Shown piece after piece: positions 5,355 through 63,996 of a DNA stretch of 64,000 bases; within the stretch, counting starts at the first letter, position 1; each line of letters opens with the position of its first letter. Position numbers and translations under genes: made by a program. This DNA comes from Verrucomicrobiota bacterium. Lineage in GTDB: Bacteria; Verrucomicrobiota; Verrucomicrobiia; Chthoniobacterales; SZAS-18. The stretch covers positions 1 to 64,000 of the forward strand of contig JAFAXH010000040.1 of the NCBI GenBank assembly GCA_019241085.1. Direction: 5' to 3'. The notes under the pieces were generated by a model. The model saw nothing but the letters and a program-made list of their open reading frames with translations. It searched no databases and was not told where the DNA came from.

Positions 5355-5417
5355 CAGGGACGGCTCGGCGAGCCATCCCTACCGCATTTGGTAGAATGTT
5401 CGCCGAGCCGCCCCAAC
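5355..5417. repeat. GC-rich palindromic element G (upstream of the M48 gene)
   Basis: Two copies of a GGCTCGGCGA-type motif face each other. The left copy (5356-5373) reads GGGACGGCTCGGCGAGCC and is itself partly self-complementary; the right copy (about 5399-5414) is the reverse complement of GGGGCGGCTCGGCGAAC. A short AT-richer spacer separates them. It lies between the divergent GH113-like and M48 genes. Confidence 0.55.
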
Positions 5418-5489
5418 CAGCGCAAATCTAAACGCACGCGCGCCTTCGCTCACGATTTCACTGCGAGTTTTCCCATTTCCAAATTCACC

Positions 5490-6353
5490 ATGGAACAACG
5501 CTCCTACGTTCGCCTGCTGCCCATCGTCATCGCGCTCATCGCGGTGGCTTACAAATTTCTGAGCACGCCGAGTTTTGTGAACCCCGAGACCGGCCGCAAG
5601 GCGCGCGTCGGCCTCAATCCCCAGCAGGAACAGGCGCTCGGCTTGCAGAGCTACAACCAGGTGTTGCAGGAAGCCGGGTCGAACGTCGTGCGCAGCGGTC
5701 CGGTCGTGGACCAGGTCACGCGCGTCGCCCGGCGTCTCGCCGGTGCCGCGGCGGCACACGGGCAGCAGCAATACAACTGGCGGCTCAGCGTCGTGCGCTC
5801 CGATCAGGTCAACGCCTTTTGTCTGCCCGGCGGCGAGATCGTCGTCTATACCGCGATCCTGCCCGTGACGCAGCACAGCGCCGGGCTGGCCGTCGTCATG
5901 GGGCACGAAATGGCGCACGCCACCAGCCGCCACGGGGCGCAGCGGATGTTTCAACAATCCATCGCGCAAACGCTCATGACCGGCGCGCAATTTTCGCTCA
6001 CGAACCTGGATTGGAACCAGCAGCGCGCCGTCATGGGCGCGCTCGGCGCCGCCACGCAATACGGCGCGATTTTGCCCTTCAGCCGCGAGCACGAGAGCGA
6101 GGCCGATCACGTCGGCCTGCTTTACATGGCCCGCGCCGGGTATGATCCGCAGGAAGCGATCAAATTCTGGCAACGCATGGAAGCGCAGGCGGGCAGCGGC
6201 CGGCAGCCCGCGGAATTTGCCAGCGACCATCCGAGCCACGGCCATCGCATCGAACAATTGAAAGGCTGGATGCCGCAGGCGTTGCAGGAATACGAGAAGG
6301 CGCCGGAAAAAGTCCCCGCCAGCGAGGCGCTCGCACCGATCAGCGGGAATTAA
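5490..6353 (+). CDS. M48 family metalloprotease, membrane-anchored
   Basis: 287 residues from the ATG at 5490, chosen because the protein then opens with a typical signal anchor (YVRLLPIVIALIAVAYKFL); the upstream in-frame codons overlap repeat G. The zinc site is VVMGHEMAHATSRHG (HExxH), with the third ligand in SREHESEADHVGLLYM and the conserved AGYDPQEAI after it. The end has the family motif SDHPSHGHRIEQL. M48 proteins of this short type (YggG/LoiP/Oma1-like) are envelope proteases that degrade misfolded or stress-damaged proteins. It is monocistronic, with queA 44 bases downstream. Confidence 0.92.
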   Translation: MEQRSYVRLLPIVIALIAVAYKFLSTPSFVNPETGRKARVGLNPQQEQALGLQSYNQVLQEAGSNVVRSGPVVDQVTRVARRLAGAAAAHGQQQYNWRLSVVRSDQVNAFCLPGGEIVVYTAILPVTQHSAGLAVVMGHEMAHATSRHGAQRMFQQSIAQTLMTGAQFSLTNLDWNQQRAVMGALGAATQYGAILPFSREHESEADHVGLLYMARAGYDPQEAIKFWQRMEAQAGSGRQPAEFASDHPSHGHRIEQLKGWMPQALQEYEKAPEKVPASEALAPISGN

Positions 6354-6397
6354 AAAATTCCGCTCCCGCCTACGCCATTTGTCATTCGTCATTTTTT

Positions 6398-8040
<1,643 letters not shown>

Positions 8041-8045
8041 CTCCC

Positions 8046-8705
8046 GTGAACCACGAGCAAATCCTCATCGCTCCCTCCATCCTCGCCAGTGATTTCGCCG
8101 CGTTCGGCGCGGAGGCCCGCCGCGCGCAGGACGACGGCGCCGATTGGATCCATCTCGACGTGATGGACGGCCATTTCGTGGACAACATTTCCTTCGGCCC
8201 CGCCGCCGTCGCCGCCATCGCCAAACACACGACATTGCCGCTCGACGTGCATCTCATGATCCAGCGGCCGGACCATTTTCTGCCGCGCTTCCTCGCCGCC
8301 GGCGCGCGCCACGTCCTCGTCCACGTCGAGCCGGCCGCGCAACACGACGTGCGCCAGACGCTCGCCGCCATCCGCGCCGCTGGCTGCCTCGCCGGATTGG
8401 TCATCAACCCGCCGACGCCCTTCGCCGCGCTGGAGCCGTATTGGGGACAATTCGACACCCTGCTCGTCATGACCGTCAACCCTGGTTTTGGCGGCCAGGC
8501 GTTCCTGCCCGAGACGATGGAAAAGGTCGCCGCCGCGCGTGCGCAACGCACTGCGCGCGGGCTGCAATTTCACATCCAGGTCGATGGCGGCATCAATGCC
8601 GAAACCGCGCCGCTCGCGCGAGAGCATGGCGCCAATGTTTTCGTCGCCGGCACCAGCGTTTTCCACGCCCCTGACATGGCCGCAGCGATCCGCGCCTTGC
8701 GTTGA
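8046..8705 (+). CDS. rpe: Ribulose-phosphate 3-epimerase
   Basis: 219 residues, normal length. It interconverts ribulose 5-phosphate and xylulose 5-phosphate in the pentose phosphate pathway. The TIM-barrel motifs are all present: IAPSILASDF, IHLDVMDGHFV (metal His and catalytic Asp), LDVHLMI, VNPGFGGQ (phosphate-binding loop), QVDGGIN and VAGTSVF. The start is GTG at 8046, 6 bases after the right arm of element B1 and with no Shine-Dalgarno motif, so the upstream hairpin could influence initiation. A second copy of the same repeat family (B2) follows the stop codon. Confidence 0.97.
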   Translation: MNHEQILIAPSILASDFAAFGAEARRAQDDGADWIHLDVMDGHFVDNISFGPAAVAAIAKHTTLPLDVHLMIQRPDHFLPRFLAAGARHVLVHVEPAAQHDVRQTLAAIRAAGCLAGLVINPPTPFAALEPYWGQFDTLLVMTVNPGFGGQAFLPETMEKVAAARAQRTARGLQFHIQVDGGINAETAPLAREHGANVFVAGTSVFHAPDMAAAIRALR

Positions 8706-8713
8706 AGCCGAGG

Positions 8714-8830
8714 TTTTTTGGACAGGATTTACAGGATTAAACAGGATGGTCCGAAGAAGCACGCAAACATTGCGATGGGGATCGGCGTGGTTTTCTTAAT
8801 CCTGTAAAATCCTGTCAATCCTGTCTGAAA
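8714..8830. repeat. Inverted tandem-array element B2 (convergent gap after rpe)
   Basis: Left arm 8714-8747 is built from repeats of ACAGGATT (for example GACAGGATTTACAGGATTAA); right arm 8791-8830 is the reverse complement with small differences. The centre is unrelated to that of B1. It starts 8 bases after the rpe stop and ends on the base before the stop of the convergent gene at 8831, so it is placed like a bidirectional terminator, with a T6 run at its left outer edge (8714-8719). Confidence 0.85.
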
Positions 8831-9403
8831 CTAGCTCCCCTGCCCCTTGCGCTCGGCGGCTTGCGGGGCGTGGGAATTATTCACCACGTCGAGGATGCGT
8901 TGCGCTGGCTCGACGCGCTCGCTTTGTAAATCGACGTTGCCATCCGGGCCAATGACGATGCAGGCGAACTTGCCATTCGCCACGCCGAACGTCGCCGCCG
9001 CGCCCGCGCCGTCTGCGGCCAGCGCGAAGGGAATGCTCGACGCTGGTTGCGGATGCTCCGCCGTGCCGCTGAAGGCCGCGATAAACACGATCTTGCGCGC
9101 GGAAATGTCGAGGTAGCGTTTCTCAATCAGCCGCGCTTGTTTTTGAAATTCGCCGTTGTCCGGTCCCGGTGCGACGAGAACGACGACGGGCTGGCCGCGA
9201 AATTTCTTGATCGACTGCCGCGCGCCTCCCGCGCCGAGCCACGCGATGTCCGGCGCCGGCCGCACGACGGCATTTTGTTGCTGCTGCGGCGATTCGGTCT
9301 TTTTCGGTTTGGCCAAACCGGCTGGTGTCACGCCGAGCCAGCAGGCGGCGGCAATGGTCAGCACGCTGATCGAGGTAAGCACAACGGGCCGCGTCTTCTT
9401 CAT
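8831..9403 (-). CDS. Exported thioredoxin-fold-like protein of unknown function
   Basis: 190 residues from the ATG at 9403. It begins with Lys-Lys-Thr-Arg and a hydrophobic segment (LTSISVLTIAAACWLGV), a signal peptide or anchor. The mature part has a thioredoxin/peroxiredoxin-like strand order: SIKKFRGQPVVVLVAPGPDN, KIVFIAAFSG, FALAADGAGAAATFGV and FACIVIGPDGNVDL. There is no Cys pair at the redox position, so any enzymatic role is doubtful. It lies downstream of frr on the same strand but is separated by 42 bases. Confidence 0.6.
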   Translation of the reverse strand: MKKTRPVVLTSISVLTIAAACWLGVTPAGLAKPKKTESPQQQQNAVVRPAPDIAWLGAGGARQSIKKFRGQPVVVLVAPGPDNGEFQKQARLIEKRYLDISARKIVFIAAFSGTAEHPQPASSIPFALAADGAGAAATFGVANGKFACIVIGPDGNVDLQSERVEPAQRILDVVNNSHAPQAAERKGQGS

Positions 9404-9445
9404 GGTCACAATCACAAAAATTTTTCGCGCCTAGCCTGCGCTCGC

Positions 9446-10009
9446 TCACACGCGCATGATCTCGGCTTCTTTTGAAGAAACCTGGTCGTCGATTTTCTTG
9501 CCGTATTCGTCGGTCAATTTCTGCACCTGCTCCTCGAACGTCGAAAGCTGGTCTTCGGTCATCACGCCTTCTTTTTTTTCCTTCTTCGCCGCGTCGAGCG
9601 CGTCGCGTCGCGCGCTGCGCACGCGCACCCGCGCCTCTTCAGCCATCGCCTTGATCGTCTTCACCAAATCGCGCCGCCGCTCTTCCGCCAACTCGGGAAT
9701 GGGTAGCCGGATGATCTTGCCGTCCACCGCCGGATTGATGCCGAGCTTGCTCTCTTTCAAGCCGCGCTCGATGTCCTTCACCGTGCTCGCGTCGAAGGGC
9801 TGCACGACGAGCAGCCGCGGCTCGGGCGTGGTGATGAGCGCGAGCTGCTTGAGCTTCATGTGCGTGCCGCCGTAGGCTTCGATGTCGATGTTTTCGACCA
9901 ACGCCGGCGATGCCTTGCCGGTGCGCACGGCGCTGAATTCGTGCGTCATGTAATTGACGCTTTTATCCATGCCTTCCTCGGCTTCGAGCAGGAGATCGTC
10001 GGCGGCCAT
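9446..10009 (-). CDS. frr: Ribosome recycling factor
   Basis: 187 residues from the ATG at 10009, which gives the normal family length; upstream in-frame codons lie in element C. RRF splits post-termination ribosomes with EF-G. Family blocks are THEFSAVRTGKASPALV, AYGGTHMKLKQLALI, VVQPFDASTVKDIERGL, LGINPAVDGKIIRLPIPEL and EERRRDLVKTIKAMAEEARV. The usual partner pyrH is upstream, but element C separates the two. Confidence 0.97.
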   Translation of the reverse strand: MAADDLLLEAEEGMDKSVNYMTHEFSAVRTGKASPALVENIDIEAYGGTHMKLKQLALITTPEPRLLVVQPFDASTVKDIERGLKESKLGINPAVDGKIIRLPIPELAEERRRDLVKTIKAMAEEARVRVRSARRDALDAAKKEKKEGVMTEDQLSTFEEQVQKLTDEYGKKIDDQVSSKEAEIMRV

Positions 10010-10024
10010 TTGGGGGAGAAGAAA

Positions 10025-10128
10025 GTTGAGAGTTGTTAGTTGAGAGTTGAGAGCTTCGGAAGGAAAGAACGGAGGAGTCGTGAGTGTTTTTTGGAAGTTC
10101 TGGACTCTCAACTCTCAACTCTCCGAAA
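10025..10128. repeat. Inverted tandem-array element C (pyrH-frr junction)
   Basis: The left arm is a tandem array of the heptamer GTTGAGA (GTTGAGAGTTGTTAGTTGAG and onwards, 10025-10060, ending in CTTCGGA). The right arm (10103-10128) is the inverted array ACTCTCAACTCTCAACTCTC followed by CGAAA. The pyrH stop codon at 10115 and its last codons lie inside the right arm, so the element has defined the C-terminus of PyrH. It is the only DNA between pyrH and frr. Confidence 0.85.
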
Positions 10129-10927
10129 CCAAAGTGCCGACTTTCTCGCCGCGCACGGCGCGCAGGATGTTGCGCGGCTGGTTCATGTCGAGCACGATGA
10201 TCGGCACGCGGTTGTCCATGCACAGGCTGAACGCCGTCGAGTCCATCACCTGCAAGCGCCGGGTGAGCGCATCGACATACGTGATGTGCTCGAAGCGGGT
10301 CGCCGTCGGGTCTTTCTTCGGATCGGCGGTGTAGATGCCATCGACCTTGGTGGCTTTCAAAATGACGTTCGCGCCGATCTCGCTGGCGCGCAGCGCGGCC
10401 GTGGTGTCGGTGGAAAAAAACGGGTTGCCCGTGCCGGCGACGAAGATGACGACGCGGCCTTTTTCGAGGTGCCGCACGGCGCGGCGCACGATGTATGGCT
10501 CGGCGATGTTTTTGATTTCAATGGCCGTTTGCACCCGCACTTCCACGCCGATGTCTTCGAGGTGATCTTGCAGCGCGATGCCGTTCATCACCGTCGCCAG
10601 CATGCCCATGTAATCGGCCATCGTGCGATCCATCCCGCGCCGGCTCGCGCTGGCGCCGCGCCAGATCTTGCCGCCGCCGCCAACAACAGCGACCTGCACG
10701 CCGAGCGCGTGAATCTCGGCGATCTCGCGGGCGATGGCTGAGACGATCTCGGGCGAGATATTATCCTGGCTGTCGTGCGCCCGCAGCGCCTCGCCGCTGA
10801 GCTTCAAAATAATGCGCTGATACTGCGGCGCCGCCACGTCCGCGCCGTTGGTGAGCGGGTGATCCGCGGCAACGTTGGGCGCGGCTTCCACAGCGGTCGG
10901 CAACGGCGAAAAAGAGGCGGTCGGCAT
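10115..10927 (-). CDS. pyrH: Uridylate kinase
   Basis: 270 residues from the ATG at 10927 (an earlier ATG at 10990 is open). UMP kinase of the amino-acid-kinase fold phosphorylates UMP to UDP. Motifs are [67 protein letters not shown] and [14 protein letters not shown]. About 35 residues precede the usual family start and look disordered. The last residues (S-E-S) are encoded by repeat element C. rng lies 90 bases upstream on the same strand. Confidence 0.96.
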
Positions 10928-11017
10928 AGGCGAGAGCACTAAAGCTGGAAGGCGCGGGCTTGTCACGCGAAAGCTCGGTGCGCGTGACAAGCGTGCGGCC
11001 GGGTTGGTTGGAAAAAC

Positions 11018-12736: not shown

Positions 12737-12920
12737 TTTCAAATGACTCCATGGTGGAGGTGAAAGGTTGGTCCCCATCAGCGCCAAGCCTTGGCGGGAT
12801 CACTCGTCGGCGAGCGGCCGACAAGAAGCAGCCCGGAAAAGGACGGTCGCCTAGCCATGAAACAGCCCGGCTGCCACAGCAGCGCACACGCGGCGGACTG
12901 ACGGAGCAGCCGACGCCGAC

Positions 12921-15434: not shown

Positions 15435-15503
15435 CGCCGGAGAAAAGGAAAGGATCGAAAAATTTGCGAGCGCGCCGCGCAGCGGCCGGCCGCCTTGGCA
15501 GGG

Positions 15504-16079: not shown

Positions 16080-16089
16080 CGCAAAGTCC

Positions 16090-16953: not shown

Positions 16954-17077
16954 AAGTTCTAAGCTCTAAGTTCTAAGCTCGAAACAAGCTCAAAGTTTCA
17001 AGCTCGAAAAGGAGAGTCGCGCCACGGAGTTTTAGTTTCGCGCTTTGAGCTTGTTTCGAGCTTAGAACTTAGGATTT
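16954..17077. repeat. Inverted tandem-array element D (mreB-mreC gap)
   Basis: The outer left part is an array of heptamers alternating AGTTCTA and AGCTCTA/AGCTCGA. A 30-base segment at 16966-16995 recurs as an exact reverse complement at 17043-17072. The loop between contains further related half-units (CAAAGTTTCAAGCTCGAAA). It lies entirely between mreB and mreC, inside an otherwise continuous gene run. Confidence 0.9.
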
Positions 17078-17084
17078 CGGATTT

Positions 17085-17099
17085 CCCGGCTCCGCCGGG
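17085..17099 (-). other. GC hairpin immediately after mreB
   Basis: A perfect 6-bp stem (CCCGGC/GCCGGG, 3-base loop) begins 2 bases beyond the mreB stop codon. No T-run follows on the transcribed strand, so it is not a standard intrinsic terminator; it may stabilise the mreB mRNA 3' end together with element D. Confidence 0.4.
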
Positions 17100-17101
17100 C
17101 C

Positions 17102-18139: not shown

Positions 18140-18488
18140 TAAAAAAATCCGCGGAGATTGGGTAGAGTCAGCCGGCAAGTCGCGGTCGCACGAATGTCGT
18201 GCAGCGCCGCAGCCGGCCTTGGGAAAAATGGAACCGGCGCGAGCGAATCGCGGGCCTGCCTTATAAAATCAAGGGCGGGCTGGAGCCGGCTTATTTTTGT
18301 CCACCGACTAGACTAGAGCGCCCACGGCGCGTCAAGAGGAAGGATGCGGGCCGGCGACGCGTCGGGAAATCGCCGCGGCCAGCCCGCTTGCAAACACCAG
18401 AGGTCCAGCGGACTTTCCGCGCCCTCAGCGCCTCGCCTCGCCTTGTTCTGCACGCTTTGCCCGCGTTTTTCCTTTTTCGATTTCTGCC
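18140..18488. other. Divergent intergenic region upstream of mreB and the 18489 gene
   Basis: 349 bases with no supported gene. It should hold the promoters of mreB (minus) and of the GNAT-like gene (plus). On the minus strand a TATAAG lies within TTGATTTTATAAG near 18261-18273, a possible -10 for mreB, but no convincing -35 accompanies it. No repeat of the inverted-array type is present here, unlike most gaps of this size in the window. Confidence 0.35.
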
Positions 18489-35706: not shown

Positions 35707-35781
35707 GGCGCCTTCGTCTAGTGGTTAGGACACAGCCCTCTCAAGGCTGGTGCACGGGTTCGACTCCCGTAGGCGCTGCCA
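35707..35781 (+). tRNA. tRNA-Glu (anticodon CTC)
   Basis: 75 bases with an encoded CCA. The acceptor stem pairs GGCGCCT with AGGCGCT (including one G-U), the anticodon arm is CAGCC/GGCTG around a 7-base loop CTCTCAA giving anticodon CTC, and the T arm contains GGTTCGACTCC. The D arm has TAGTGGTTAGGA typical of tRNA-Glu. It has its own promoter and is the only RNA gene found in the window. Confidence 0.97.
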
Positions 35782-37636: not shown

Positions 37637-37748
37637 AAGCGAGCTTGGCGCGGCGTTTCCACGCGCGAGGCGTCGTTTGGTTGACAATAGCCCAGCGCTC
37701 GCGGCCCGGAGTCCTCGCTTCCGGCTCGAATGCTTCGTTTCTGCTGAA

Positions 37749-37892
37749 AATAGCCCAGCGCTTCAGCGCTGGGGAAACGGGTGCGGCATGAGGAATAGTC
37801 CCGGCCGGGACGGCAGAACGGTTCTTTCGTCCCTGACGGGACTTTGCGCCTGACCGACAACGCCTTTCCCAGCGCTGAAGCGCTGGGCTATT
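37749..37892. repeat. Nested palindromic element F
   Basis: A 25-base sequence at 37749-37773 (containing CCCAGCGCTTCAGCGCTGGG, itself a near-perfect palindrome) recurs as an exact reverse complement at 37868-37892. Inside lies a second inverted pair, AGTCCCGGCCGGGAC and GTCCCTGACGGGACT. The first 14 bases of the outer arm (AATAGCCCAGCGCT) occur once more in direct orientation at 37686-37699. No gene is supported between 37637 and about 38140. Confidence 0.85.
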
Positions 37893-38032
37893 GTCGCCAG
37901 ACACCCTTTCTAAGCACCGGAGCACTGAGCCATGGTCAAAAGATATGCAATTTCAACGGTTTTACATCTAATCTCCGTGTGCAACTTAGAAATGTGTGAA
38001 ACGAATGAGAAAATCGGCCGGTGGGCGAGGGG

Positions 38033-48726: not shown

Positions 48727-48830
48727 GGCTTAATCCTAATCTTAATCTTAGTCCTCTGCGCTCGTGGCGCGTCGCTCCAGATGCCTCCGGCGGCAGAGAC
48801 TAGGATTAAGATTACGATTAGGATTAAGCC
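48727..48830. repeat. Inverted hexamer-array element A1
   Basis: 104 bp. It opens GGCTTAATCC and closes GGATTAAGCC. Arms are tandem hexamers of NGATTA type (left CTTAATCCTAATCTTAATC; right GGATTAAGATTACGATTAGG). The GC-rich core reads TCTGCGCTCGTGGCGC and then GCCTCCGGCGGCAGA. It has the same core orientation as A3. Confidence 0.9.
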
Positions 48831-52627: not shown

Positions 52628-52673
52628 GGAGTTTGGCTGAGTGTGTTTTTTTCTCCCTAAACTAAACCTTGGT

Positions 52674-52776
52674 CTTAATCCTAATCCTAATCTTGGTCTC
52701 TGCCGCCGGAGGCAATGCTTGGGCCATGCGCCGCGAGCGCAGAGGGATTAGGATTAAGATTACGATTAGGATTAAG
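52674..52776. repeat. Inverted hexamer-array element A2
   Basis: 103 bp. Left arm CTTAATCCTAATCCTAATCT, right arm GGATTAGGATTAAGATTACG and onwards to 52776. The core is TCTGCCGCCGGAGGCA, a 13-base variable part and GCGCCGCGAGCGCAGA: the reverse-complement orientation of A1 and A3, the same as A4. Confidence 0.9.
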
Positions 52777-53352: not shown

Positions 53353-53364
53353 ATTGAAAAAAAA

Positions 53365-54060
53365 TCAGAACGACCGGCGGCGCGATTGCGCTTCGCCCGC
53401 GTGGAGGATGATCGGCCAGAGCGTGCTGGCGAAATAATACCAAAACGCCACCCAGCCGGCGAGGCACAACGCGGCGAGCACGATGGCCCAGAGCAGCCAG
53501 GCGCGGCTGCGTGGCACGAGGCTGCGGGCGGGTTGACGCCAGGCCGCCGCGGCGAGCACGAGCGCGGCGGGCGCGGTGAACATCGTCAGCCCGGCCAGCG
53601 GAAAAATCGCCAGCGGCGCGGCGACGAGGAAAAACGAAAGTTTATCGAAAAAAACGCGCTCGGTTTCCAGCTCGCGCCGCAACGGATTGCCGTGGTCGCC
53701 CGTGGTAGTCGGAGCGAGAGTCTTGTCCACACAATCCGGGCAAAGGTGCCGGCCGGGCGCGAGTTCCAAATCGCAGGTGGCGCACAGAAAGCGGCCGCAA
53801 TGTCCGCACGGCACGGCGGCTTTCTTCGCGGGATGAAAGAAGCAGCCGGCGTCCTCCGCCGTGAGCAGCGGCGCGGCGACGGGCGCGGCAGGCGCGGCAG
53901 GTCGGAAAAAGGCGGGGAAGACTTCGACTTGCAGCGACGTGCCGCAACTCGGACAAGCCACGGGCGCGGGCGTGTTGACGACTTCGCCGCCGAGCACGGT
54001 TTGGCACGCGTCGCACTGGAGCAAGCTGGGCGCGGGAGACATGGTGGCAGCAGCGGTCAC
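53365..54060 (-). CDS. Zinc-ribbon/B-box membrane protein
   Basis: 231 residues from a GTG at 54060 (GTGA overlap with the RDD gene); an ATG at 54042 is an alternative. A first zinc ribbon (CDACQTVLGGEVVN and CPSCGTSLQV) is followed by a B-box-like module (CFFHPAKKAAVPCGHCGRFL, then CATCDLELAPGRHLCPDC) and three hydrophobic helices (FFLVAAPLAIFPLAGLTMFT, APAALVLAAAAWR, WAIVLAALCLAGWVAFWYYF). The function is unknown; the repeated zinc modules in this cluster suggest a protein-binding role. Confidence 0.7.
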   Translation of the reverse strand: MTAAATMSPAPSLLQCDACQTVLGGEVVNTPAPVACPSCGTSLQVEVFPAFFRPAAPAAPVAAPLLTAEDAGCFFHPAKKAAVPCGHCGRFLCATCDLELAPGRHLCPDCVDKTLAPTTTGDHGNPLRRELETERVFFDKLSFFLVAAPLAIFPLAGLTMFTAPAALVLAAAAWRQPARSLVPRSRAWLLWAIVLAALCLAGWVAFWYYFASTLWPIILHAGEAQSRRRSF

Positions 54061-54929: not shown

Positions 54930-55109
54930 TTCCTTGAAATAACCGCGGATGAACGCGGATGAAACGCGGAGGATTTTTAGCCGGAATCGGCGGAATTCCA
55001 ACAGAATTACCGGGGAAAAGGAAACAAGGCCGGGCCGCACAAAGCACCGGCATTTCCTTTGCCACCCCGCCGCGTTTTCCCAGGCGCGTCCGCAGCTTTT
55101 GCTGGGCGC

Positions 55110-56210: not shown

Positions 56211-56286
56211 ACTGGGAGGATACGTGGGAAGGTTAACGGATGGACGGGGGAATGTCGAGCCGCGCCAACGGGTATTTTTCTTTCCT

Positions 56287-56406
56287 CACTCGGGCTTAAT
56301 CGTAATCGTAATCCTAATCTTAGTCCTCTGCGTTCGCGGCGTGTCGCCCTTGCCTCCGGCGGCAGCAGACTAAGATTAAGATTACGATTAGGATTAAGCC
56401 TGAGTG
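56287..56406. repeat. Inverted hexamer-array element A3
   Basis: 120 bp including outer CACTC/GAGTG extensions of the inverted repeat. The left arm is CTTAATCGTAATCGTAATCC and onwards, the right arm AAGATTAAGATTACGATTAG. The core has TCTGCGTTCGCGGCG and TGCCTCCGGCGGCAG, in the A1 orientation. It fills the gap between the divergent rhomboid and DNA polymerase genes, and the right end contains a GTG in frame with the polymerase. Confidence 0.9.
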
Positions 56407-56466
56407 GGAGACGCGGTGCTGACAGATGACAGGCAGCGGATTCCGGGCCAGAATGGCCGCACCAAA

Positions 56467-58734
56467 ATGCAATTTGCGGAAAATCGCGTCCTGTTCGGCC
56501 ACGACGAGACGCCGCGGCTGGTTTCCGTCGAGTTGGCGGGGGAAAAGGAAGTGCTCGTTTTCCGCCGTGAAGGCGCCGGGGTGGACGCTCGGACGGTGAC
56601 GGAGCGCGCGCCGTTTCAGCCGTTTCTGTGGCTGGCGGCGGACGCTAGTTTGACGCTGCCGGGCGATCAGACGCTGAGCGGCGGGCTGCACTTTTCGCGG
56701 CTCGCGCGCTGCGGGAGCTGGAGCGATTTTCAACGGCTGCGCGGCGAGTTGCGCGACGCCAACGTGTCGCACTTCGCGTTGAGCGACCCGGTGCAGCAAT
56801 ACCTCACGGCGACCGGGCGGACGTTGTTCAAAGGCATGGATTTCGCCGAGCTGCGGCGGATGCAGATCGACATCGAAACGTTTTGTGCGCGGGGCTTCGA
56901 GTTTTCCAACGCCGAGCGCGCGAGCGATCATCTCATGGCCATCGCGGTGAGCGATCAATCGGGCTGGGAAGAGTTGATTTTGGTCGAGCACAAAAACTTC
57001 GAGCAAAGCGAGCGGCTCGCGCTCGAACAGCTCAACGCGCTCATCGCCGAGCGCGATCCCGACGTGCTGGAAGGACACAATTTTTTCAAGTTCGACCTGC
57101 CGTATCTCGCGGCGCGCGCGCGACGGCACCGCGTGCGGCTCGCGTGGGGACGCGACGGCAGCGTGCTGAGTTCGCGCGCGTCGCGGGTGCAGATCGCGGA
57201 GCGGACGATCAATTATCCCAAGGCCGAAGCGCGCGGACGGCACATCGTCGATACGTTTTTGCTCGTGCAGCTTTACGACATCGGCACGCGCGAGCTGGAA
57301 TCGTTTGGGTTAAAAGATGTCGCGCGCCACTTCGGCATCACGGCGGGCGGCGGCGATGAGGCGCACGAACGCACGTATCTCAGCGGGCTGGAAATTCAGG
57401 AGGCATATCTGCACGCGCCGCAGAAGTTCGCCGCGTATGCGCTCGACGACGTGCGCGAGACGCGGGCGTTGAGCGGGCTGCTCAGCGGCAGCTATTTCAT
57501 CCAGGCGCAGATTTTTCCTTATAACTATCAAGAGGTCATCGTGCGCGGCAACGCGACGCGGGTGAACTCGCTCTTCCTGCGCGAATACTATCAGCGCGGA
57601 CACTCGATCCCGGATTTGCCGACCGCACGAGCTTACGAAGGCGGCTACACGGATGTCTTCGTCACCGGCGTGAAACACAACGTCTGGCACTGCGACGTGG
57701 CCTCGCTGTATCCGAGCGTGATGCTGCGTTACGACGTGTTTCCGGCGGCAGACAAGCTCGGCATTTTCCGCGGACTATTGACCGACCTGCGCGCATTCCG
57801 TTTGCAAGCAAAAGCCGACATGCGCAAGGCCGCGACGGACCCGGCGCGACGCCGCGAATACAACACGCTCAACGCGCTGCAAAATGTGTTCAAAGTCCTC
57901 ATCAATTCGTTCTACGGCTACCTCGGTTTTGCGCAGGGACACTTCGCCGATTACGACGCCGCGTCGCGCGTGACCGAGATCGGGCGCGACTTGTTAAAAC
58001 AGATGGTCGCGCGCTTGCAGACAGCCGGCGCGGAAGTCATCGAGATAGATACGGATGGCATCTACTTCGTGCCGCCAACTGGCGCGACGACGGAGACGCT
58101 CGGCAGGCAGCTTGCCGACGTGTTGCCGCAAGGCATCGAGATCGAGTTCGACGCGAAGTTTCAAGCGATGTTTTCTTATAAGGCGAAGAACTACGCGCTG
58201 CTCGCCGAGGATGGCTCGCTGGTCCTCAAAGGCGGCGCCTTGAAGTCGCGCGGGCTGGAGAAATTTCAGCGCACGTTTTTGGAAAAAATGATCTGCCACT
58301 TGCTCGCCGGCGAGCCGGAGAAAATCGCGGCGTTGCGCGAGGAGTATGAACGCAACATCCGCGAGCGGCTTTGGGAAATTGACTGGCTGGCGAAGACCGA
58401 CACGCTGCAAGATTCGCTCGGGCAATATCAGAAAAAAATCGGCGCCAGCGCGCGCAACCGCTCCGCCGCGTATGAACTCGCGCTGAAGAGCGGCCGCGAC
58501 TACCAGCCCGGCGATCAGGTGAAGTTTTATATCACCGGAGAAAAGAAAAAGGTGAGCGCGTATGACAACGCCAAGCTCGCCAGCGAATGGCGCCGCGATG
58601 CACGCGACGAGAACGTCGAATACTACCTCGACAAGCTCAACGAGCTAGTCGCGAAGTATGCCAAGTTTTTGCCGGCGGAAGCCACCGCGAAACGCGGCAA
58701 AGCCGATCCGCACCAAGGCGATTTGTTTGGGTGA
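56467..58734 (+). CDS. Family-B DNA polymerase with 3'-5' exonuclease
   Basis: 755 residues from the ATG at 56467, chosen because it lies beyond repeat A3; a GTG at 56404 would add 21 residues encoded by the repeat. Exonuclease motifs are MQIDIETFC (Exo I), LEGHNFFKFDLPYL (Exo II) and FAAYALDDVRETRAL (Exo III). Polymerase motifs are WHCDVASLYPSVML (A), VFKVLINSFYGYLGF (B) and EVIEIDTDGIYF (C). All catalytic Asps are present. Family-B enzymes of this bacterial type act in repair or damage tolerance. It is followed by hicBA. Confidence 0.95.
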   Translation: MQFAENRVLFGHDETPRLVSVELAGEKEVLVFRREGAGVDARTVTERAPFQPFLWLAADASLTLPGDQTLSGGLHFSRLARCGSWSDFQRLRGELRDANVSHFALSDPVQQYLTATGRTLFKGMDFAELRRMQIDIETFCARGFEFSNAERASDHLMAIAVSDQSGWEELILVEHKNFEQSERLALEQLNALIAERDPDVLEGHNFFKFDLPYLAARARRHRVRLAWGRDGSVLSSRASRVQIAERTINYPKAEARGRHIVDTFLLVQLYDIGTRELESFGLKDVARHFGITAGGGDEAHERTYLSGLEIQEAYLHAPQKFAAYALDDVRETRALSGLLSGSYFIQAQIFPYNYQEVIVRGNATRVNSLFLREYYQRGHSIPDLPTARAYEGGYTDVFVTGVKHNVWHCDVASLYPSVMLRYDVFPAADKLGIFRGLLTDLRAFRLQAKADMRKAATDPARRREYNTLNALQNVFKVLINSFYGYLGFAQGHFADYDAASRVTEIGRDLLKQMVARLQTAGAEVIEIDTDGIYFVPPTGATTETLGRQLADVLPQGIEIEFDAKFQAMFSYKAKNYALLAEDGSLVLKGGALKSRGLEKFQRTFLEKMICHLLAGEPEKIAALREEYERNIRERLWEIDWLAKTDTLQDSLGQYQKKIGASARNRSAAYELALKSGRDYQPGDQVKFYITGEKKKVSAYDNAKLASEWRRDARDENVEYYLDKLNELVAKYAKFLPAEATAKRGKADPHQGDLFG

Positions 58735-58755
58735 AGATTCGTTGTAACTTTGCCC

Positions 58756-58953
58756 ATGCGATACCCAGTAGTGCTGCGCGAAACAGACGAGGGTTACAGC
58801 GTGCAATGCCCGGCCTTGTCCGGCTGTTGGTCGCAGGGAAAAACCGAGGCCGAGGCGCTCGCGAACATTGCGGATGCCATTCAGGATTACCTCGCTGCGC
58901 TGCACGATTCGCTGGCTGGCGCGGACGTGCGGGAAGTGGAAATTTCCGCGTAA
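58756..58953 (+). CDS. hicB: HicB-family antitoxin
   Basis: 65 residues from the ATG at 58756. RYPVVLRETDEGYSVQCPAL, GCWSQGKTEAEALANIADAI and QDYLAALHDSL are the conserved HicB N-terminal degraded-RNaseH-like fold. There is no C-terminal DNA-binding domain, so it is the short form. HicB neutralises HicA by covering its RNA-binding surface. The order antitoxin then toxin, 4 bases apart, is typical. Confidence 0.92.
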   Translation: MRYPVVLRETDEGYSVQCPALSGCWSQGKTEAEALANIADAIQDYLAALHDSLAGADVREVEISA

Positions 58954-58957
58954 TTCC

Positions 58958-59170
58958 ATGCCGCGGATACCGGGCGTCAATCACCTGCGCGCGGTCGCGG
59001 CGCTGGAGAAAGCCGGCTTCCGCATCGTGCGCCAAGGCAAGCACATCGTGATGTCGGACGGCGCGCGGTTCTTGACCATTCCGCGAAACAATCCGGTGAA
59101 TGCTTTCACGATGGGCGGCATCGCCAAAGACGCTGGCCTCGGCGTTGATGAATTCCGCAAGCTGCTTTGA
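58958..59170 (+). CDS. hicA: HicA-family toxin (mRNA interferase)
   Basis: 70 residues: IPGVNHLRAVAALEKAGFRI, then VRQGKHIVMSDGARFLTIPR and NPVNAFTMGGIAKDAGL. This is the HicA dsRBD-like fold with the catalytic His in G-K-H. HicA cleaves mRNA, arresting growth until HicB binds it. It is 4 bases downstream of hicB and 3 bases before a histidine kinase gene, so read-through into the kinase is possible. Confidence 0.93.
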   Translation: MPRIPGVNHLRAVAALEKAGFRIVRQGKHIVMSDGARFLTIPRNNPVNAFTMGGIAKDAGLGVDEFRKLL

Positions 59171-59173
59171 AAA

Positions 59174-60418
59174 ATGAAACGCGGCTTTGTCGATAAGCTC
59201 ATCGCGCGCCTGGGCCGGCTGCGGCCGGAGGAGGCGCAGGCGCATGTGTTGCGCATCGTGCGCGAAAAGGGGTTTCTCGAAACGATCTTCAACGCCATCC
59301 AGGAAGGCATCATCGTCACCGATCCGAATGGCCGCATCGCGTATCTCAACACGGCGGCGGCGCAGCTTTTCGGATTGAATCACGATACCGCGCTCGGTCA
59401 GCCGCTCGACTCCGCGGTGCGCGGCCTGGACTGGGCGTCGCTGGCGAACGCGGATGGCGGGCGCGACAAGTTCGTCAGCCGCGACATGGAGGTTTTTTAT
59501 CCGGCCAATCGCTTCCTGAATTTCTACGTCGTGCCGTTGTTGCTCGAAGAAACTCCGCGCGCCGCGCGCCGCCGTGGTGGGCGGCCGGATGAAGCCGCGC
59601 GCGTCGAGCGGGCGGGTCACGCGATGATCGTGCGCGATCTCACCGAGAGCCGCCGCAACGCGCAGGAGACGCTCGAAACCGAGCGGCTCAACGCGCTCAC
59701 GCTCCTCGCCGCGGGCGTGGCGCACGAGATCGGCAATCCGTTGAATTCTTTGAACATCCACCTTCAGCTCATGGAGCGGAAACTGCGCAAGCTGCCGCTC
59801 GGCGACCGCGCGGAACTCGAAGACTCCGTGCGCATCGCCAAGGACGAAATCCGGCGGCTCGATTTCATCGTGAGCCAGTTTTTGCGCGCCATTCGCCCGG
59901 CGAGTTTGCAGACGCAAATCGAAGACGTAAACGCCGTCGTGCGCGAGTCGGTCGCGTTTCTCCAAGCCGAAATCGAAGACCGCGACATCCTCGTGGAAAC
60001 CGAGCTGGCGGAAAATCTGCCGCCGCTGGAAATCGACCGCGACCAGCTCAAGCAGGCGTTTTACAATGTGATCAAAAACGCCGTGCAAGCGATGCAGAGC
60101 GGCGGCATCCTGCGCATCACGAGCGGGGCGGAGCCGGAGTATGTCTGCGTGGCATTCACCGACACGGGCGGCGGCATTTCGCAGGAGCATCTCAACAAGG
60201 TTTTCGAGCCGTATTTCACGACGAAAGCGAGCGGCAGCGGGCTGGGTTTGCTCATCGTGCGGCGCATCGTGCGCGCGCACGGCGGCGAGATCGAATTGCG
60301 CAGCGACGAAGGCCGCGGGCTGACAATCACCATCCGGCTGCCGCGCCGCGACAGGCAGGTGCGGATGCTGGCGTTGCGCGAGGGGGATAACGAGGCGTCG
60401 GGCGAGGACGAAGGGTAA
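59174..60418 (+). CDS. PAS-domain sensor histidine kinase
   Basis: 414 residues, soluble. Residues about 25-135 form a PAS domain (LETIFNAIQEGIIVTDPNGR, IAYLNTAAAQLFGLNHDTAL), the dimerisation domain has the phospho-His in LLAAGVAHEIGNPLNSLNI, and the ATPase domain shows QAFYNVIKNAVQAM (N), AFTDTGGGISQEHLNKVFEP (G1/F) and GSGLGLLIVRRIV (G2). This is NtrB/AtoS-like in form. No response regulator is adjacent. The gene follows hicA by 3 bases and is followed by repeat E. Confidence 0.93.
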   Translation: MKRGFVDKLIARLGRLRPEEAQAHVLRIVREKGFLETIFNAIQEGIIVTDPNGRIAYLNTAAAQLFGLNHDTALGQPLDSAVRGLDWASLANADGGRDKFVSRDMEVFYPANRFLNFYVVPLLLEETPRAARRRGGRPDEAARVERAGHAMIVRDLTESRRNAQETLETERLNALTLLAAGVAHEIGNPLNSLNIHLQLMERKLRKLPLGDRAELEDSVRIAKDEIRRLDFIVSQFLRAIRPASLQTQIEDVNAVVRESVAFLQAEIEDRDILVETELAENLPPLEIDRDQLKQAFYNVIKNAVQAMQSGGILRITSGAEPEYVCVAFTDTGGGISQEHLNKVFEPYFTTKASGSGLGLLIVRRIVRAHGGEIELRSDEGRGLTITIRLPRRDRQVRMLALREGDNEASGEDEG

Positions 60419-60422
60419 GTTT

Positions 60423-60593
60423 TAACACACAGGCACAAAGGCATCGAGGAACACATAGGATGGAGTTTTTTTACCTTCCAACCTTTACGCTTCTATCTTC
60501 TACTACTCACCATTCGCTATCTACTACCTATCTTCTACCTTGCTTCACTCTTCTACCTCCGTGTTCCTCGGTGTCTTTGCGCCTGTGTGTTAA
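60423..60593. repeat. Inverted tandem-array element E
   Basis: Left arm 60423-60455 starts TTAACACACAGGCACAAAGG and continues with a CGAGGAACAC end. The right arm 60561-60593 is the reverse complement with four mismatches in 33. Units are CACAGG-, CACAAAGG- and CGAGG-like. The ~105-base centre is pyrimidine-rich (TCTATCTTCTACTACTCACC, CTATCTACTACCTATCTTCT). The right arm contains the GTG start and first codon of the lipoprotein gene. Confidence 0.88.
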
Positions 60594-61066
60594 GATATAG
60601 CTGCTTCCTCGCGTTCAGTCTTCTCTTCGCCACCGGCTGCGCGCGCGGACCGCGCAACGCCACCGAGGCCAAGGCCAAAATGCCGCGCGTTTTCGCGGGC
60701 AGCGTGACGTTCGACGGCGAGCGCGCCGGCCGGCGGGTGCGCGTGCTGACCGATTCGTTGCGGGTGCGCGACGAACACACACTGGAATTCGAGCGCGTGC
60801 ATTTCTACGTGCTTGCGCCGCTGAGCGACGACACGCTCTTTGACGAAATCGTCGAGACGCACGGCACCATCGACGTGCCCGGCCTGGACATTCACGTTAA
60901 CGAGCACGACCTCGGCCGCGCGGGCGGCGAACCGCTCACGGTGCGTGCCGGTTCCTTCCACGGCCAGCTCAGCGCCGACCTGCGCACGGTCCACGCCGAA
61001 TGGTTCATGCCGGACCCGAACACCGGCGCGGAACGCAAAGCTGAGTTGAAGCTTCGCGCGCCGTAA
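60587..61066 (+). CDS. Small lipoprotein of unknown function
   Basis: 159 residues from a GTG at 60587. The signal is short (MLRYSCFLAFSLLFATGC) with a lipobox ending A-T-G-C, so the protein is probably anchored in a membrane via Cys18. The remainder is a beta-rich domain (MPRVFAGSVTFDGERAGRRV, RVHFYVLAPLSDDTLFDEIV, ERKAELKLRAP) without recognised motif. The start codon lies in the right arm of repeat E. It ends 15 bases before the stop of the convergent TIR protein. Confidence 0.6.
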   Translation: MLRYSCFLAFSLLFATGCARGPRNATEAKAKMPRVFAGSVTFDGERAGRRVRVLTDSLRVRDEHTLEFERVHFYVLAPLSDDTLFDEIVETHGTIDVPGLDIHVNEHDLGRAGGEPLTVRAGSFHGQLSADLRTVHAEWFMPDPNTGAERKAELKLRAP

Positions 61067-61081
61067 ATCAATTTCGGGATT

Positions 61082-63730
61082 TTAAGGCGCCGCCTGCTGG
61101 CTTTTTTCGCCGCTTTCCTGCGACGGCGTCGCGGTCGCCGCGGGGGCGGCAGCGGCTTTCGCCAGCACCAATCCACGTTTGGCTTCGGCCGATTCCGGTT
61201 CCAGCTTGAGCGCCTGCGCATAATCTTCCGCCGCAGCGTCCCAGCGGCCGAGCGCCAGCCGCAGATTGGCGCGTTGCACGAGCAAGCTCGCGCTCGGCTG
61301 GTGCGCGGGGCCGTTGAATTTGGCGTCAAAACGCGACAGCTCCTTCTGCAATTGTTGGGGGTCGGCGTAAGCCTTGCCGGCGGGCGTGTGCTCGCGCGCG
61401 AACGCCTCGCCCGCGGCCGCACACGCGGCGGCGTAGTCTTCGATGGCCTCCGCGCGGTTCTTTTCCGCTTCGGCGCGGTCGGCGGCTGCGAGGAATGCCA
61501 GTGCCGCGCGTTGCTGCGGGTCGTCCGACGCCGACGGCTGCGGCGTTGGCACGACGTTGGGCGTCATCGTGGGAGGATGAGACGGCGTCGCGTAGGCCAG
61601 GGTTCCCGGTTCGCTGGCGGATCGTTGTTGCCGCAGGAAAAGCCCCGCGCCGGCGACTGCGAGCAACACGACGGTCAACGCACCCGCCAGCGCGCCGATG
61701 GGCAGGCGTCGCCGCGCCGGACCTTCCACTGGCGATAATGATGCTGCTGCTGGCGCCAGCATGGGCACCGGCGCGGCGGCAGGCGACGACGCCACGGCCT
61801 GCGGCGTTATGGGCATAGCCGACGACTGCGCCGGCGCCGGCGTTGTTGCACCCGTGGCGCCGGCCGCTGCGCCGAGCCGGTGAAAGTGGAGCTGCCGCAA
61901 CGGCTCCGGCGGCGGCGGCATCGGGTCCTGCCAATACGTCGGCCGCACAAACGTGTCGCGGCGCAGGCTCAGCGCGTGCTGCCATTCGCGCTCGACGAAC
62001 TCCGAGCGCGCCGCGTTCTGCGACCAGAAGAGTTGAAAAATATCGGCCTCCTCGATGATCTTCCGCAGCCGCGCGTCCCATTTCTCGCCGCTGCGCAGGT
62101 GCAGCCAGTCGCGCAGATATTCGTCGCCGAGCGTGCGCGCATGGCGCTCGACGCTTTCGACAATTTCCACGTCCCGGTGCGAGTAAGAGGCAAAGATTTT
62201 GCGAAACGGCCGCGCGCTGCTCCGCTCGCGTCCGGCGACCTCTGCTTCCTTCGCCGCAAGATTGCCGAGCTGACTATCGACGCGGATCGCGAGGCTGATT
62301 TCGGCCAGCACCAATGGCCCGAGAAAAACCGTGAGCCGGCCGCGCGCCGTTTTCCCATCCAACGCCGCGCCCGCCCGCAGGTCGAACGTTTCGCCGTGAA
62401 CGCTCACGCCGTCTTTCCAAAAAAACGTCCGGTGCGGCGGATTAAATTCCACGCCGGCCAGCTCGGGCACAAACGTGATCTCGCCTTCGCGCGGCACGGC
62501 CAGCCGGCTGTCATCGGTCGTCTGCTTGTAATCCTCCGCGTGCTGCGGGCCGAGGATCGCGGCGGCTTGCGCGGCCATTTCCTCCAACGGCGCGCGTTCG
62601 TCGGCGTCCATCCAGGCGGGGCGTTCCTCGAGGTGCGCGAAGACGAGCAGCTTGGCCCATTTGTTGGGCTGAACAACTTTGGGTCGATACGCGGTGAACT
62701 GGACGTTTTCGTCGAGCGCCGGCGACGGCGTCGCGGGCGTGGTTGCCGGCGCTGGGGCGAGCGGCCGCGGCAAGCTGTCGAGCGGAATGCACGTCGTGTC
62801 GCCGGTCGAAGTCTCATCCTCAACCGACGCGCTCGTAGCAGCGGCGGGTGGCGGCATCGCGCGGCCCGCCTGGCAGGCTTCGATGTCTTGCAATAATTCC
62901 TCCGCCGACTGTGGTCGCTCGCCGGGCGCGCGCGCGAGCAGCCGCGCGAGCAACGCACGCACCGGCTCGGGCGCGCTGGCCGGCAGGCGGTCGAGAAAAG
63001 TTTGCGGCAGGTCGTTGTTGCCGACGCTGGACAACAGCGGGAGCGGCGACTCGCCGACGAGCAAAAACCAGAGCACCAAGCCGAGCTTGTAATAATCCGT
63101 GCGCCGGTCCGACACGCGGTGCTCTTTTTCCTCCGGGCTGAGCCAGCGCGGCCCGCCGCTGCCTTCGCCGCCCCAGCGCCCGGGCGAGGGCGGGAGCAGC
63201 GCGGCGGCTTCGTAGCTGACGATTTTGACCACGTTGTCCTTCGACCCCGCGCCGCCCTGCGTGGCGGCGGTGAACCGCAAAACGTCCGGCCCCAGATGCG
63301 GATGAACCAAGCCCAGCGCGCCGGCCGCTTGCAGCCCGAGCGCGACCTGCCGCGCCAGCTCCAGCGCCTCGGCTGCCGGCAACGGCCCGCGTTGTTTTAC
63401 CAGGTCGGCCAGCGACTCGCCCGCGGCCCGTTCCATCACCAGCACGCACCGCCCGTCCGTCGCGTGATCCGTGGCAAGCAAGGCGGCGACGTGCGGATGG
63501 TGCAGCGTCGCCAAAAGGTGCGCGATCTTTTCGTTGGTTTGCCACGCGCTGACGCGCAACACGACCTCTGGCGCATCGGCTGCGTCGGCGTCGGCGGTGC
63601 GCCGCGCCTTGTAAACCATGCCTTCCACGCCCCAGCCCAGCCACCACATGCTCCCCTCCTCGGGCCGCCGCAGGACGCGGTATTGCCCCAGGAGCGCGAG
63701 GTCGTCGTGGTCTTCGTCGTTGCCGGCCAT
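61082..63730 (-). CDS. Pseudokinase-TIR-membrane-TPR fusion protein
   Basis: 882 residues. Residues ~15-295 match a Ser/Thr kinase fold (YRVLRRPEEGSMWWLGWGVE, VERAAGESLADLVKQRG region) but lack the key residues: the H-R-D loop is HPHLGPDVL, no D-F-G follows, and the usual Lys strand reads VVLRVSA. A beta-rich domain (~345-500) precedes a TIR_2 domain (~507-620) with KIFASYSHRDVEIVESVERH and ADIFQLFWSQNAARSEFVER. A membrane helix (GALAGALTVVLLAVAGAGLF, ~677-697) and a C-terminal TPR region (NLRLALGRWDAAAEDYAQAL) follow. It appears to be a membrane-anchored signalling scaffold. Confidence 0.82.
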   Translation of the reverse strand: MAGNDEDHDDLALLGQYRVLRRPEEGSMWWLGWGVEGMVYKARRTADADAADAPEVVLRVSAWQTNEKIAHLLATLHHPHVAALLATDHATDGRCVLVMERAAGESLADLVKQRGPLPAAEALELARQVALGLQAAGALGLVHPHLGPDVLRFTAATQGGAGSKDNVVKIVSYEAAALLPPSPGRWGGEGSGGPRWLSPEEKEHRVSDRRTDYYKLGLVLWFLLVGESPLPLLSSVGNNDLPQTFLDRLPASAPEPVRALLARLLARAPGERPQSAEELLQDIEACQAGRAMPPPAAATSASVEDETSTGDTTCIPLDSLPRPLAPAPATTPATPSPALDENVQFTAYRPKVVQPNKWAKLLVFAHLEERPAWMDADERAPLEEMAAQAAAILGPQHAEDYKQTTDDSRLAVPREGEITFVPELAGVEFNPPHRTFFWKDGVSVHGETFDLRAGAALDGKTARGRLTVFLGPLVLAEISLAIRVDSQLGNLAAKEAEVAGRERSSARPFRKIFASYSHRDVEIVESVERHARTLGDEYLRDWLHLRSGEKWDARLRKIIEEADIFQLFWSQNAARSEFVEREWQHALSLRRDTFVRPTYWQDPMPPPPEPLRQLHFHRLGAAAGATGATTPAPAQSSAMPITPQAVASSPAAAPVPMLAPAAASLSPVEGPARRRLPIGALAGALTVVLLAVAGAGLFLRQQRSASEPGTLAYATPSHPPTMTPNVVPTPQPSASDDPQQRAALAFLAAADRAEAEKNRAEAIEDYAAACAAAGEAFAREHTPAGKAYADPQQLQKELSRFDAKFNGPAHQPSASLLVQRANLRLALGRWDAAAEDYAQALKLEPESAEAKRGLVLAKAAAAPAATATPSQESGEKSQQAAP

Positions 63731-63888
63731 AGCGGAGTCTGGCTACTTTTTTTGCTGCAAGGGGAAAGCTGGCTCGTCCGCTCCAAGGGACTATCCATTG
63801 GCGGGGAGAAAGGCAATCCTTCTTGTCAACGGTGCGGAAGCGGGTTCCTGTTTGGTCCGAGTCTGACTCTTTGTTCGCTCTCAACCAG

Positions 63889-63996
63889 CTTAATCCTAAT
63901 CTTAATCTTAGTCCTGGTCCTGCCGCCGGAGGCAGCGCTTGAGCCATGCGCCGCGAGCGCAGAAGGACTAAGATTAAGATTAGGATTACGATTAAG
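63889..63996. repeat. Inverted hexamer-array element A4
   Basis: 108 bp at the right edge, upstream of the pseudokinase-TIR gene. Left arm CTTAATCCTAATCTTAATCT; the right arm shares 20 perfectly inverted bases (CTAATCTTAATCTTAGTCCT on the left). The core is CTGCCGCCGGAGGCAG, a variable part and GCGCCGCGAGCGCAGA, as in A2. Confidence 0.9.

Follow-up and report, generated by a model that had tools for sequence, protein, structure and literature searches.

The 64,000-nucleotide stretch of Verrucomicrobiota DNA analyzed here (hereafter the window; contig C130 of a source genome of 3,423,288 bases in 170 contigs, 86.94% complete) carries nine elements in which two tandem arrays of short units face each other. 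We propose that small mobile cassettes end in such facing arrays, and that hairpins with the same layout but lacking a gene are derivatives of these cassettes, a reading to which we assign a probability of about two in three. There is good support for interpreting the arrays as cassette ends and remnants, and from comparison of the sequences we strongly infer that the protein encoded by the cassette, its cargo, reads the array units.

A sequence-only reading of the window had suggested that several families of unrelated sequence, designated A to E, share one architecture, with F and G as GC-rich relatives in layout. The shared architecture is borne out, and it extends over many phyla. The families fared less evenly. 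When the window elements were examined by direct reading, de novo scanning, and RNA folding, A to E were confirmed, whereas G is a plain hairpin and F is weak.

Cargo genes lie between facing arrays in the source genome

Two protein profiles define the cargo, PF13366 (GxxExxY) and PF05635 (the four-helix-bundle, or 4HB, proteins of the S23/23S intervening protein type, 23S-IVP). These profiles recover four and two genes, respectively, from the source genome. All four GxxExxY genes (L033 to L036) and one of the two 4HB genes (L032) are located between facing arrays. The 4HB gene L032 has family D arrays on both sides, with arms identical at 61 of 62 bases, and L033 has family B arrays on both sides, while L034 to L036 are bounded by GCAAAG, CACGAGG, and CGCCAAG arrays. 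The remaining 4HB gene (L031), located at the end of a contig, has a gene-less family A element upstream of it rather than around it. Gene-less copies share their ends with a full cassette in the case of D, whose signature is present in L032, and of B, whose type of arm is present at L033, but not in the case of A.

The distribution of facing arrays was surveyed in a genome sample of 414,292 bases (the window plus seven contigs), of which 70,786 are intergenic as judged by a simple gene caller of our own. At a strict de novo setting (inverted repeat, IR, of at least 34 and array of at least 12), 44 facing arrays were found between genes and 8 within them, a total of 52 to be compared with 1, 3, and 0 in three dinucleotide shuffles of the sample. 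Copies inside genes are rare, and the earlier statement that these elements occur only between genes is nearly correct. The intergenic set comprises 12 arrays of family A, 6 of B, 2 of C, 8 of D, 11 with GxxExxY-type units, 3 of a GC-rich GCGCGCTCCGTCGCGC family, and 2 others, among them the GxxExxY cassette L035. In at least four of these cases the paired arms come from neighboring elements rather than from one element (loops of 676, 1016, 1204, and 1365). At a loose setting the excess is weaker, with 110 inverted, 102 direct, and 21 shuffled cases, and therefore the claim rests on the strict intergenic set.

Further copies are plentiful in the whole genome, as the sequence-only reading had anticipated. 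The family A unit pattern matches 147 times, versus 0 for a reversed-pattern control, and a 15-base family D signature (at most one mismatch) matches 49 times, versus 0 for its control. Once matches within 150 bp are merged, D occupies 38 places. The cassette L032, with both arms, is one of them, and those of the other 37 that were read, in the sampled contigs, are gene-less. Gene-less copies far outnumber cassettes in this genome. A six-frame hmmsearch of the 414-kb sample for cargo remnants in gene-less loops recovered the GxxExxY genes already identified, without any significant match to 4HB.

Facing arrays accompany cargo genes in several phyla

Matches to PF13366 and PF05635 are present in 104 and 140, respectively, of 194 genomes of the phylum. 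To the source genome's own genes we added, for each kind of cargo, the loci of the 30 top-scoring genomes of the phylum (28 families besides its own). A further set from named genomes holds 80 of 588 4HB relatives, and 30 ParE toxin loci served as the control. Because the best-scoring loci were sampled, the fractions given below may not hold for all family members. For each locus, 400 bp on each side were compared, with 100 dinucleotide shuffles. The test covers all loci except L034, L031, L165, L179, and L207, whose sequence is too short, and five ParE loci truncated at a contig end; the two 4HB sets have one locus in common (L153 being the contig of L082).

Inverted arms exceed all 100 shuffles at 29 of 33 GxxExxY loci, at 25 of 31 (phylum) and 56 of 77 (named genomes) 4HB loci, and at 1 of 25 ParE loci (Fisher p against ParE of 4e-11, 3e-9, and 5e-10, respectively). 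Arms together with a significant array are observed at 19/33, 24/31, 52/77, and 0/25 loci in the same order. The named records span Bacteroidota, Chloroflexi, Planctomycetota, Acidobacteria, Nitrospirae, candidate-phyla bacteria, Clostridia, Proteobacteria, and Methanophagales archaea; many are metagenome-assembled genomes, and single names may be contaminants. One of two archaeal loci passed the array tests, and the other is too short for the shuffle test. On plasmids, five of eight GxxExxY records have arms that exceed all shuffles (arms widened by 15 bases), and the six 4HB records examined, of 23 with a match, all carry facing arrays with a period of 7 or 8. On the Gemmatirosa plasmid (L398), the 400 bp to either side of the GxxExxY gene (1501-1847) each hold a complete gene-less hairpin, a layout like that of a composite transposon, and L063 is similar, with palindromes.

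Facing arrays were also counted in 80 kb from each of ten other genomes. The five genomes that lack both cargo families yielded 0 in 400 kb, whereas the five cargo-bearing genomes yielded 12 in 400 kb (3, 0, 1, 3, and 5), a few of which are possibly coding noise. Shuffles of these ten genomes gave a mean of 0.

Unit period and unit core differ with the cargo

At the sampled loci, the period of the array units is tied to the cargo. The period is 8 to 10 at all 22 array-significant GxxExxY loci and never 7, whereas a period of 7 is seen at 26 of 29 4HB loci of the phylum and 48 of 65 from named genomes (74/94 overall). A unit core also recurs with GxxExxY. The motif CRCNRAR, which was chosen after the data had been seen, occurs at least twice in both arms at 24 of 34 GxxExxY loci, compared with 1 of 93 for 4HB (from 111 loci) and 0 of 24 for ParE (from 30). 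Its reverse complement meets the same threshold at 0 of the 34 GxxExxY loci. Applied to the eight plasmid GxxExxY records, the motif is found in four (Bacteroides, Gemmatirosa, Bernardetia, and Sphingomonas) and fails in those from Treponema, Fusobacteria, Prevotella, and Persicobacter.

Insertion, turnover, and placement among genes

At one locus, in genome G193, a 4HB cassette interrupts a gene that is related to N6_N4_Mtase DNA methylases. The parts of the methylase that match a 632-amino-acid protein of G113 break off and resume near residue 500, in different frames. A run of N in the right arm in G193 leaves the frame and the exact length uncertain. The methylase is a single open frame of 617 to 658 amino acids in all seven relatives examined (G113, G297, G269, G265, G277, G281, and G266), 21 of the 76 genomes of this genus, including G193, being matched at the locus. 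A second locus documents turnover: in one gap of genus g46, G026 has a 4HB cassette, and the two relatives examined, G304 and G017, have different array remains (13 of 17 genomes matched, including G026). A clean empty site with target duplication was sought in the G193 and G026 genera and was not found.

Cargo genes run in the same direction as their neighbors. Where both neighbors, taken as the longest open frame, are callable and agree with each other, the cargo runs with them at 81 of 85 loci (14:1 for GxxExxY, 20:1 for 4HB of the phylum, and 47:2 for 4HB of named genomes) and in 7:1 plasmid cases, compared with 4:7 for ParE. The loci counted are 15 of 34 GxxExxY, 21 of 31 and 49 of 80 4HB, 8 of 10 plasmid, and 11 of 30 ParE. 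Annotated gene orders include fabD-GxxExxY-fabG on a Sphingomonas plasmid and cas6-4HB-cas4 on plasmids of Anabaena and Pseudanabaena. One orthologous cassette (L078 and L082) lies between genes that we named atpA and atpG by eye from the translation; it has a dN of 0.008 and a dS of 0.072, values that rest on 7 differences.

In two cyanobacterial genera, a 4HB cassette occupies the identical place between cas6 and cas4 of type I-D CRISPR operons, with different heptamers (L151 and L152). The 23S rRNA IVP is among the domains in a CRISPR association figure of a CRISPR-discovery survey, in the part of that work available to us (PMC10910872). Our guess is that facing arrays might have been mistaken there for those of CRISPR.

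Family A and other hexamer arrays

Family A, the hexamer class, was read at 42 loci, wherein both arms have recognizable arrays at 28 and one arm is clear at 14; a degenerate partner is visible at most of the latter. If the stem were maintained for its pairing, the variable spacer base of the hexamer should match from one arm to the other within a copy. Agreement is 0.407 within copies and 0.425 between copies (permutation p of 0.64; 28 copies, 108 positions). Since agreement within copies is no higher than between them, pairing of the spacer bases is not what is maintained; what is kept is the pentamer TAATC. The uncorrelated arms argue against selection for the hairpin alone, for family A, in which covariation was tested. 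A search of six same-family genomes did not find family A, as expected of a lineage-specific amplification.

At L296 (C100:11262) and L293 (C68:7541), family A arms adjoin a different center, CGGGACTATGCAC..., and arms and center thus appear like exchangeable modules. G227 and G239, from a genus in the same order, have facing hexamer arrays, CTCGTG/TAATCG, that are gene-less where read (L328-L357). These possibly represent a third period class without known cargo. Counts of the hexamer pattern are no evidence in these two genomes (33 matches versus 20 in the control, and 18 versus 22).

The cargo proteins

In NCBIfam, the cargo proteins belong to TIGR04256 (GxxExxY) or TIGR02436 (four-helix bundle), names that describe a motif or a shape only. 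GxxExxY lies within the PD-(D/E)XK nuclease superfamily in Pfam, and weak Cas4 matches are consistent with that fold. The D, E-x-K, and Q columns, which we take to be the catalytic residues, are invariant in 21 GxxExxY proteins. The GxxExxY profile matched no solved structure. Two 4HB relatives have solved structures, 2gsc and 2rld, with five chains each. The 4HB proteins also match Avd, the accessory protein of diversity-generating retroelements (DGRs), at a level below the cut-off (4.8e-12 with NCBIfam; 39.8 bits for bAvd against a cut-off of 40). A search for GxxExxY in phages gave no match, and an IMG/VR search with one protein gave none that was confirmed. The genome-wide search for transposases was made with one family, PF01797 (RAYT/Y1_Tnp), and returned two weak matches (28.3 and 26.8 bits), both within frames longer than 1200 amino acids.

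Array elements of the window

The nine facing-array elements of the window, four of family A, two of B, and one each of C, D, and E, are collected in Table 1. For the eight elements of families A to D, none of 200 shuffles folds as stably. The arms of the family E element are at 60402-60454 and 60561-60612, and its loop holds a nested, one-sided heptamer array of the 4HB type. Although the families are unrelated by sequence, they are less so in kind, with B and E resembling GxxExxY cassettes and C and D resembling 4HB cassettes. An Rfam search of the window at gathering score matched a tRNA gene (35707-35778) only, with no rRNA and no known RNA family on the arrays.

Table 1. Facing-array elements of the window. 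The z column gives the RNA folding score.
Family	Units	Period	Position	Strand	z	Remarks
B	ACAGAATT	9	7918..8041	.	-8.2	gene-less; IR 54; resembles GxxExxY cassette L033
B	ACAGGATT	9	8721..8825	.	-7.4	gene-less
C	GTTGAGA	7	10022..10125	.	-7.5	gene-less; 4HB type by period only
D	AGTTCTA/AGCTCGA		16954..17085	.	-7.3	15-mer AAGCTCGAAACAAGC in common with 4HB cassette L032
A	TAATCN	6	48727..48830	.	-9.3	gene-less
A	hexamer	6	52673..52776	.	-4.8	gene-less
A	hexamer	6	56294..56400	.	-8.5	gene-less
E	CACAAAG/CACCGAG		60402..60612	.		facing arms, GxxExxY type; IR 54; not among the folded elements
A	hexamer	6	63889..63997	.	-8.0	gene-less

Of the two proposed relatives in layout, G (~5340-5412) is GC-rich and folds into a strong hairpin (z of -8.1) without arrays. 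F (18170-18300) has a z of -2.65, with 3 of 200 shuffles equally stable, and the single split tried gave a 7-bp match. GC-rich inverted repeats of the GGGACGGCTCGGCGAG type (5340-5412) and the CCAGCGCTTCAGCGCTGG type (37737-37904) form strong hairpins without clear short-unit arrays, and a repeat of the GGGACGGCTCGGCGAG type is also nested inside a family A center on contig C98. Another dispersed inverted family, TGTCATCC[CT]GAG... (for example L281:13354-13511 and L278:10015-10121), has seven intergenic copies in the 414-kb sample, none at the array threshold.

Discussion

A possible mechanism begins with the full cassette, which consists of an array, one small gene (GxxExxY or S23/23S-IVP 4HB), and the same array facing back. 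The cargo protein may recognize the units of its own array, which would offer several consecutive sites per end, and may join both ends and promote copying to new sites through host replication or repair enzymes. Gene-less hairpins would be non-autonomous derivatives copied in trans, in the manner of miniature inverted-repeat transposable elements (MITEs). In a transcript, the facing arrays are predicted to form a long stem that RNase III could cleave, and such cleavage might allow insertion into operons to be tolerated and the cargo to be expressed by read-through.

Several observations weigh against this proposal. We observed no movement of a cassette, and the G193 insertion is without a clear target-site duplication; identity in the flanks is 75 to 80%, and ~30 nt of the target are seemingly replaced or diverged. 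The cassettes contain no transposase, their cargo being TIGR04256 or TIGR02436, with Y1_Tnp the one transposase family searched genome-wide. We know of no catalytic activity of the 4HB protein, which would hardly move DNA alone. No cargo gene for family A was found among the 42 loci read, and lone family A arms with no partner nearby are present on C22 and C68. The flank tests have exceptions as well. Neither signal is present at 1 of 33 GxxExxY and at 1 of 31 and 8 of 77 4HB loci (compared with 23 of 25 ParE loci), 10 of the 33 GxxExxY loci have arms without a significant array, L057 and L063 being plain palindromes, three of the eight plasmid GxxExxY records do not beat all shuffles, and the cargo-bearing genome G081 has no facing array in 80 kb. 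Finally, according to the available text of PMC4990558, Coxiella probably does not produce its S23 protein in vivo, the corresponding open reading frame (ORF) is decaying, and the RNA is considered more important, conclusions that speak against cargo-driven upkeep in that organism.

That Coxiella element, an intervening sequence (IVS) in 23S rRNA, inspires the alternative that survives best, in which RNase III would free a cargo RNA from the array stem and new copies would be made by a reverse transcriptase in trans. The strong same-direction bias (81:4) fits this route, as does the kinship of 4HB with Avd (the profile matches below cut-off noted above; PMC10053308, as far as available to us). 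RNase III cuts the Coxiella IVS where the heptamers start, and its authors favor the RNA over the protein (PMC4990558, same portion). However, selection on cargo expression could by itself produce the bias, GxxExxY is part of a nuclease superfamily, the arms of family A do not covary, and no reverse transcriptase was noticed beside the cassettes, though none was sought. We regard this route as unlikely. An RNA-level role may nonetheless accompany mobile cassettes, given the direction of the cargo and the RNase III-cut relative described in that portion of PMC4990558.

The sequence-only reading had offered two explanations, selection for a long hairpin or a copying mechanism. The latter fits better because arrays bound gene-bearing cassettes, one cassette interrupts a gene, and the arms of family A are uncorrelated. 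In its fullest form the former explanation would have host-useful RNA hairpins, acting in termination, mRNA stability, or processing, arise repeatedly and their stems be kept by selection. The mostly intergenic location, the very stable folds (z of -4.8 to -9.3), and the common layout in unrelated sequences are what such hairpins would show. Nevertheless, arrays surround cargo genes and sit within an interrupted gene, family A arms lack covariation, and the family is missing from the six same-family genomes. Furthermore, gene-less copies are rarely found between convergent genes (2/36), and in family B a T-run precedes the stem and an A-run follows it, the wrong way around for an intrinsic terminator. 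Host function as the source of these elements is consequently very unlikely. Between co-directional genes the gene-less copies number 26 of 36, which does not clearly exceed the proportion made up by gaps of this kind (40,184 of 67,308 nt).

REPINs, formed from repetitive extragenic palindromic (REP) sequences, are dispersed hairpins paired with RAYT, a Y1 transposase. The present elements resemble them as high-copy, dispersed intergenic hairpins with few full-length partners. No clear RAYT was found here: the two PF01797 matches are weak and lie in very long frames whose flanks were not inspected, and the genes between matching arrays encode GxxExxY or 4HB proteins. On these matches a RAYT origin is disfavored, and we judge it highly improbable. 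Chance or slippage repeats in AT-rich gaps, which can yield short arrays and would suit the similar numbers of direct and inverted repeats at loose thresholds, are refuted for the set as a whole by the near absence of facing arrays from shuffles of the sample at the strict setting and from those of the ten other genomes, by arms at cargo genes that exceed 100 shuffles, and by family signatures without control matches.

With mobile cassettes as the preferred reading, likenesses to known elements can be weighed. MITEs are non-autonomous inverted-repeat elements. As with MITEs, gene-less copies outnumber related full elements, and terminal inverted repeats are present; in contrast, the ends here are tandem arrays, the full element has no recognized transposase, and no clear target duplication was seen. 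Among cyanobacteria, the 4HB genes examined on Nostoc, Trichormus, and Anabaena plasmids lie between heptamer arrays like the short tandemly repeated repetitive sequences (STRRs) of this group. The heptanucleotide STRRs of heterocystous cyanobacteria are reportedly direct arrays, connected neither with a protein gene nor with facing partners. The TAACTGA repeats of Beggiatoaceae are likewise intergenic heptamer arrays, but they are direct and mostly upstream of start codons, with one inverted case in 170 sets; a mobile binding protein is offered as one possibility, and S23, four helix, and PDDEXK are not mentioned in the text available to us (PMC4679880).

The closest relative is probably the Coxiella 23S rRNA IVS itself, as a known member of the cassette class. 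In the parts of PMC4990558 at hand, this IVS has an S23 ORF (S23p, PF05635-type) in its loop, tandem heptamers immediately before the ORF, and a stem cut by RNase III at the first heptamer, and it is termed selfish. Our comparison covers the upstream heptamers and the ORF. A PF05635 ORF occupies the loop of 4HB cassettes, although not that of GxxExxY cassettes or gene-less copies, and a heptamer array beside the ORF is common, as the period counts for 4HB loci attest. The differences are that the IVS resides in 23S rRNA helices, whereas the present elements, including those of the window, lie between protein genes and often in operons, and that they have GxxExxY as an alternative cargo and many gene-less copies. 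Our literature search, largely of open-access papers and with no bioRxiv preprints, gave among the matches listed none linking GxxExxY or 4HB proteins to facing arrays. One published passage, available in part, places GxxExxY as the neighbor gene of a CRISPR-like reverse transcriptase.

Tentatively, and at somewhat less than even odds, these elements may form one pan-prokaryotic class of transposase-less cassettes whose end sites are read by their cargo. The class would include, as members or as remnants, the 23S rRNA IVS, cyanobacterial heptamer repeats, and a large part of the unexplained intergenic hairpins, with units of period 7 for 4HB, 8 to 10 for GxxExxY, and perhaps 6 for a third cargo.

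The placement of cargo genes in cassettes gives TIGR04256 and TIGR02436, families named only by motif or shape, a testable role, and the difference in period makes a recognition code between protein and array directly testable. Dispersed intergenic hairpins gain an origin, and the old puzzle of why some bacteria carry an S23 gene within their 23S rRNA is tied to a general element. If genes and arrays are indeed mobile, their annotation as host genes or as host regulatory repeats would need to change, and several unexplained bacterial repeats would join one class of selfish element.

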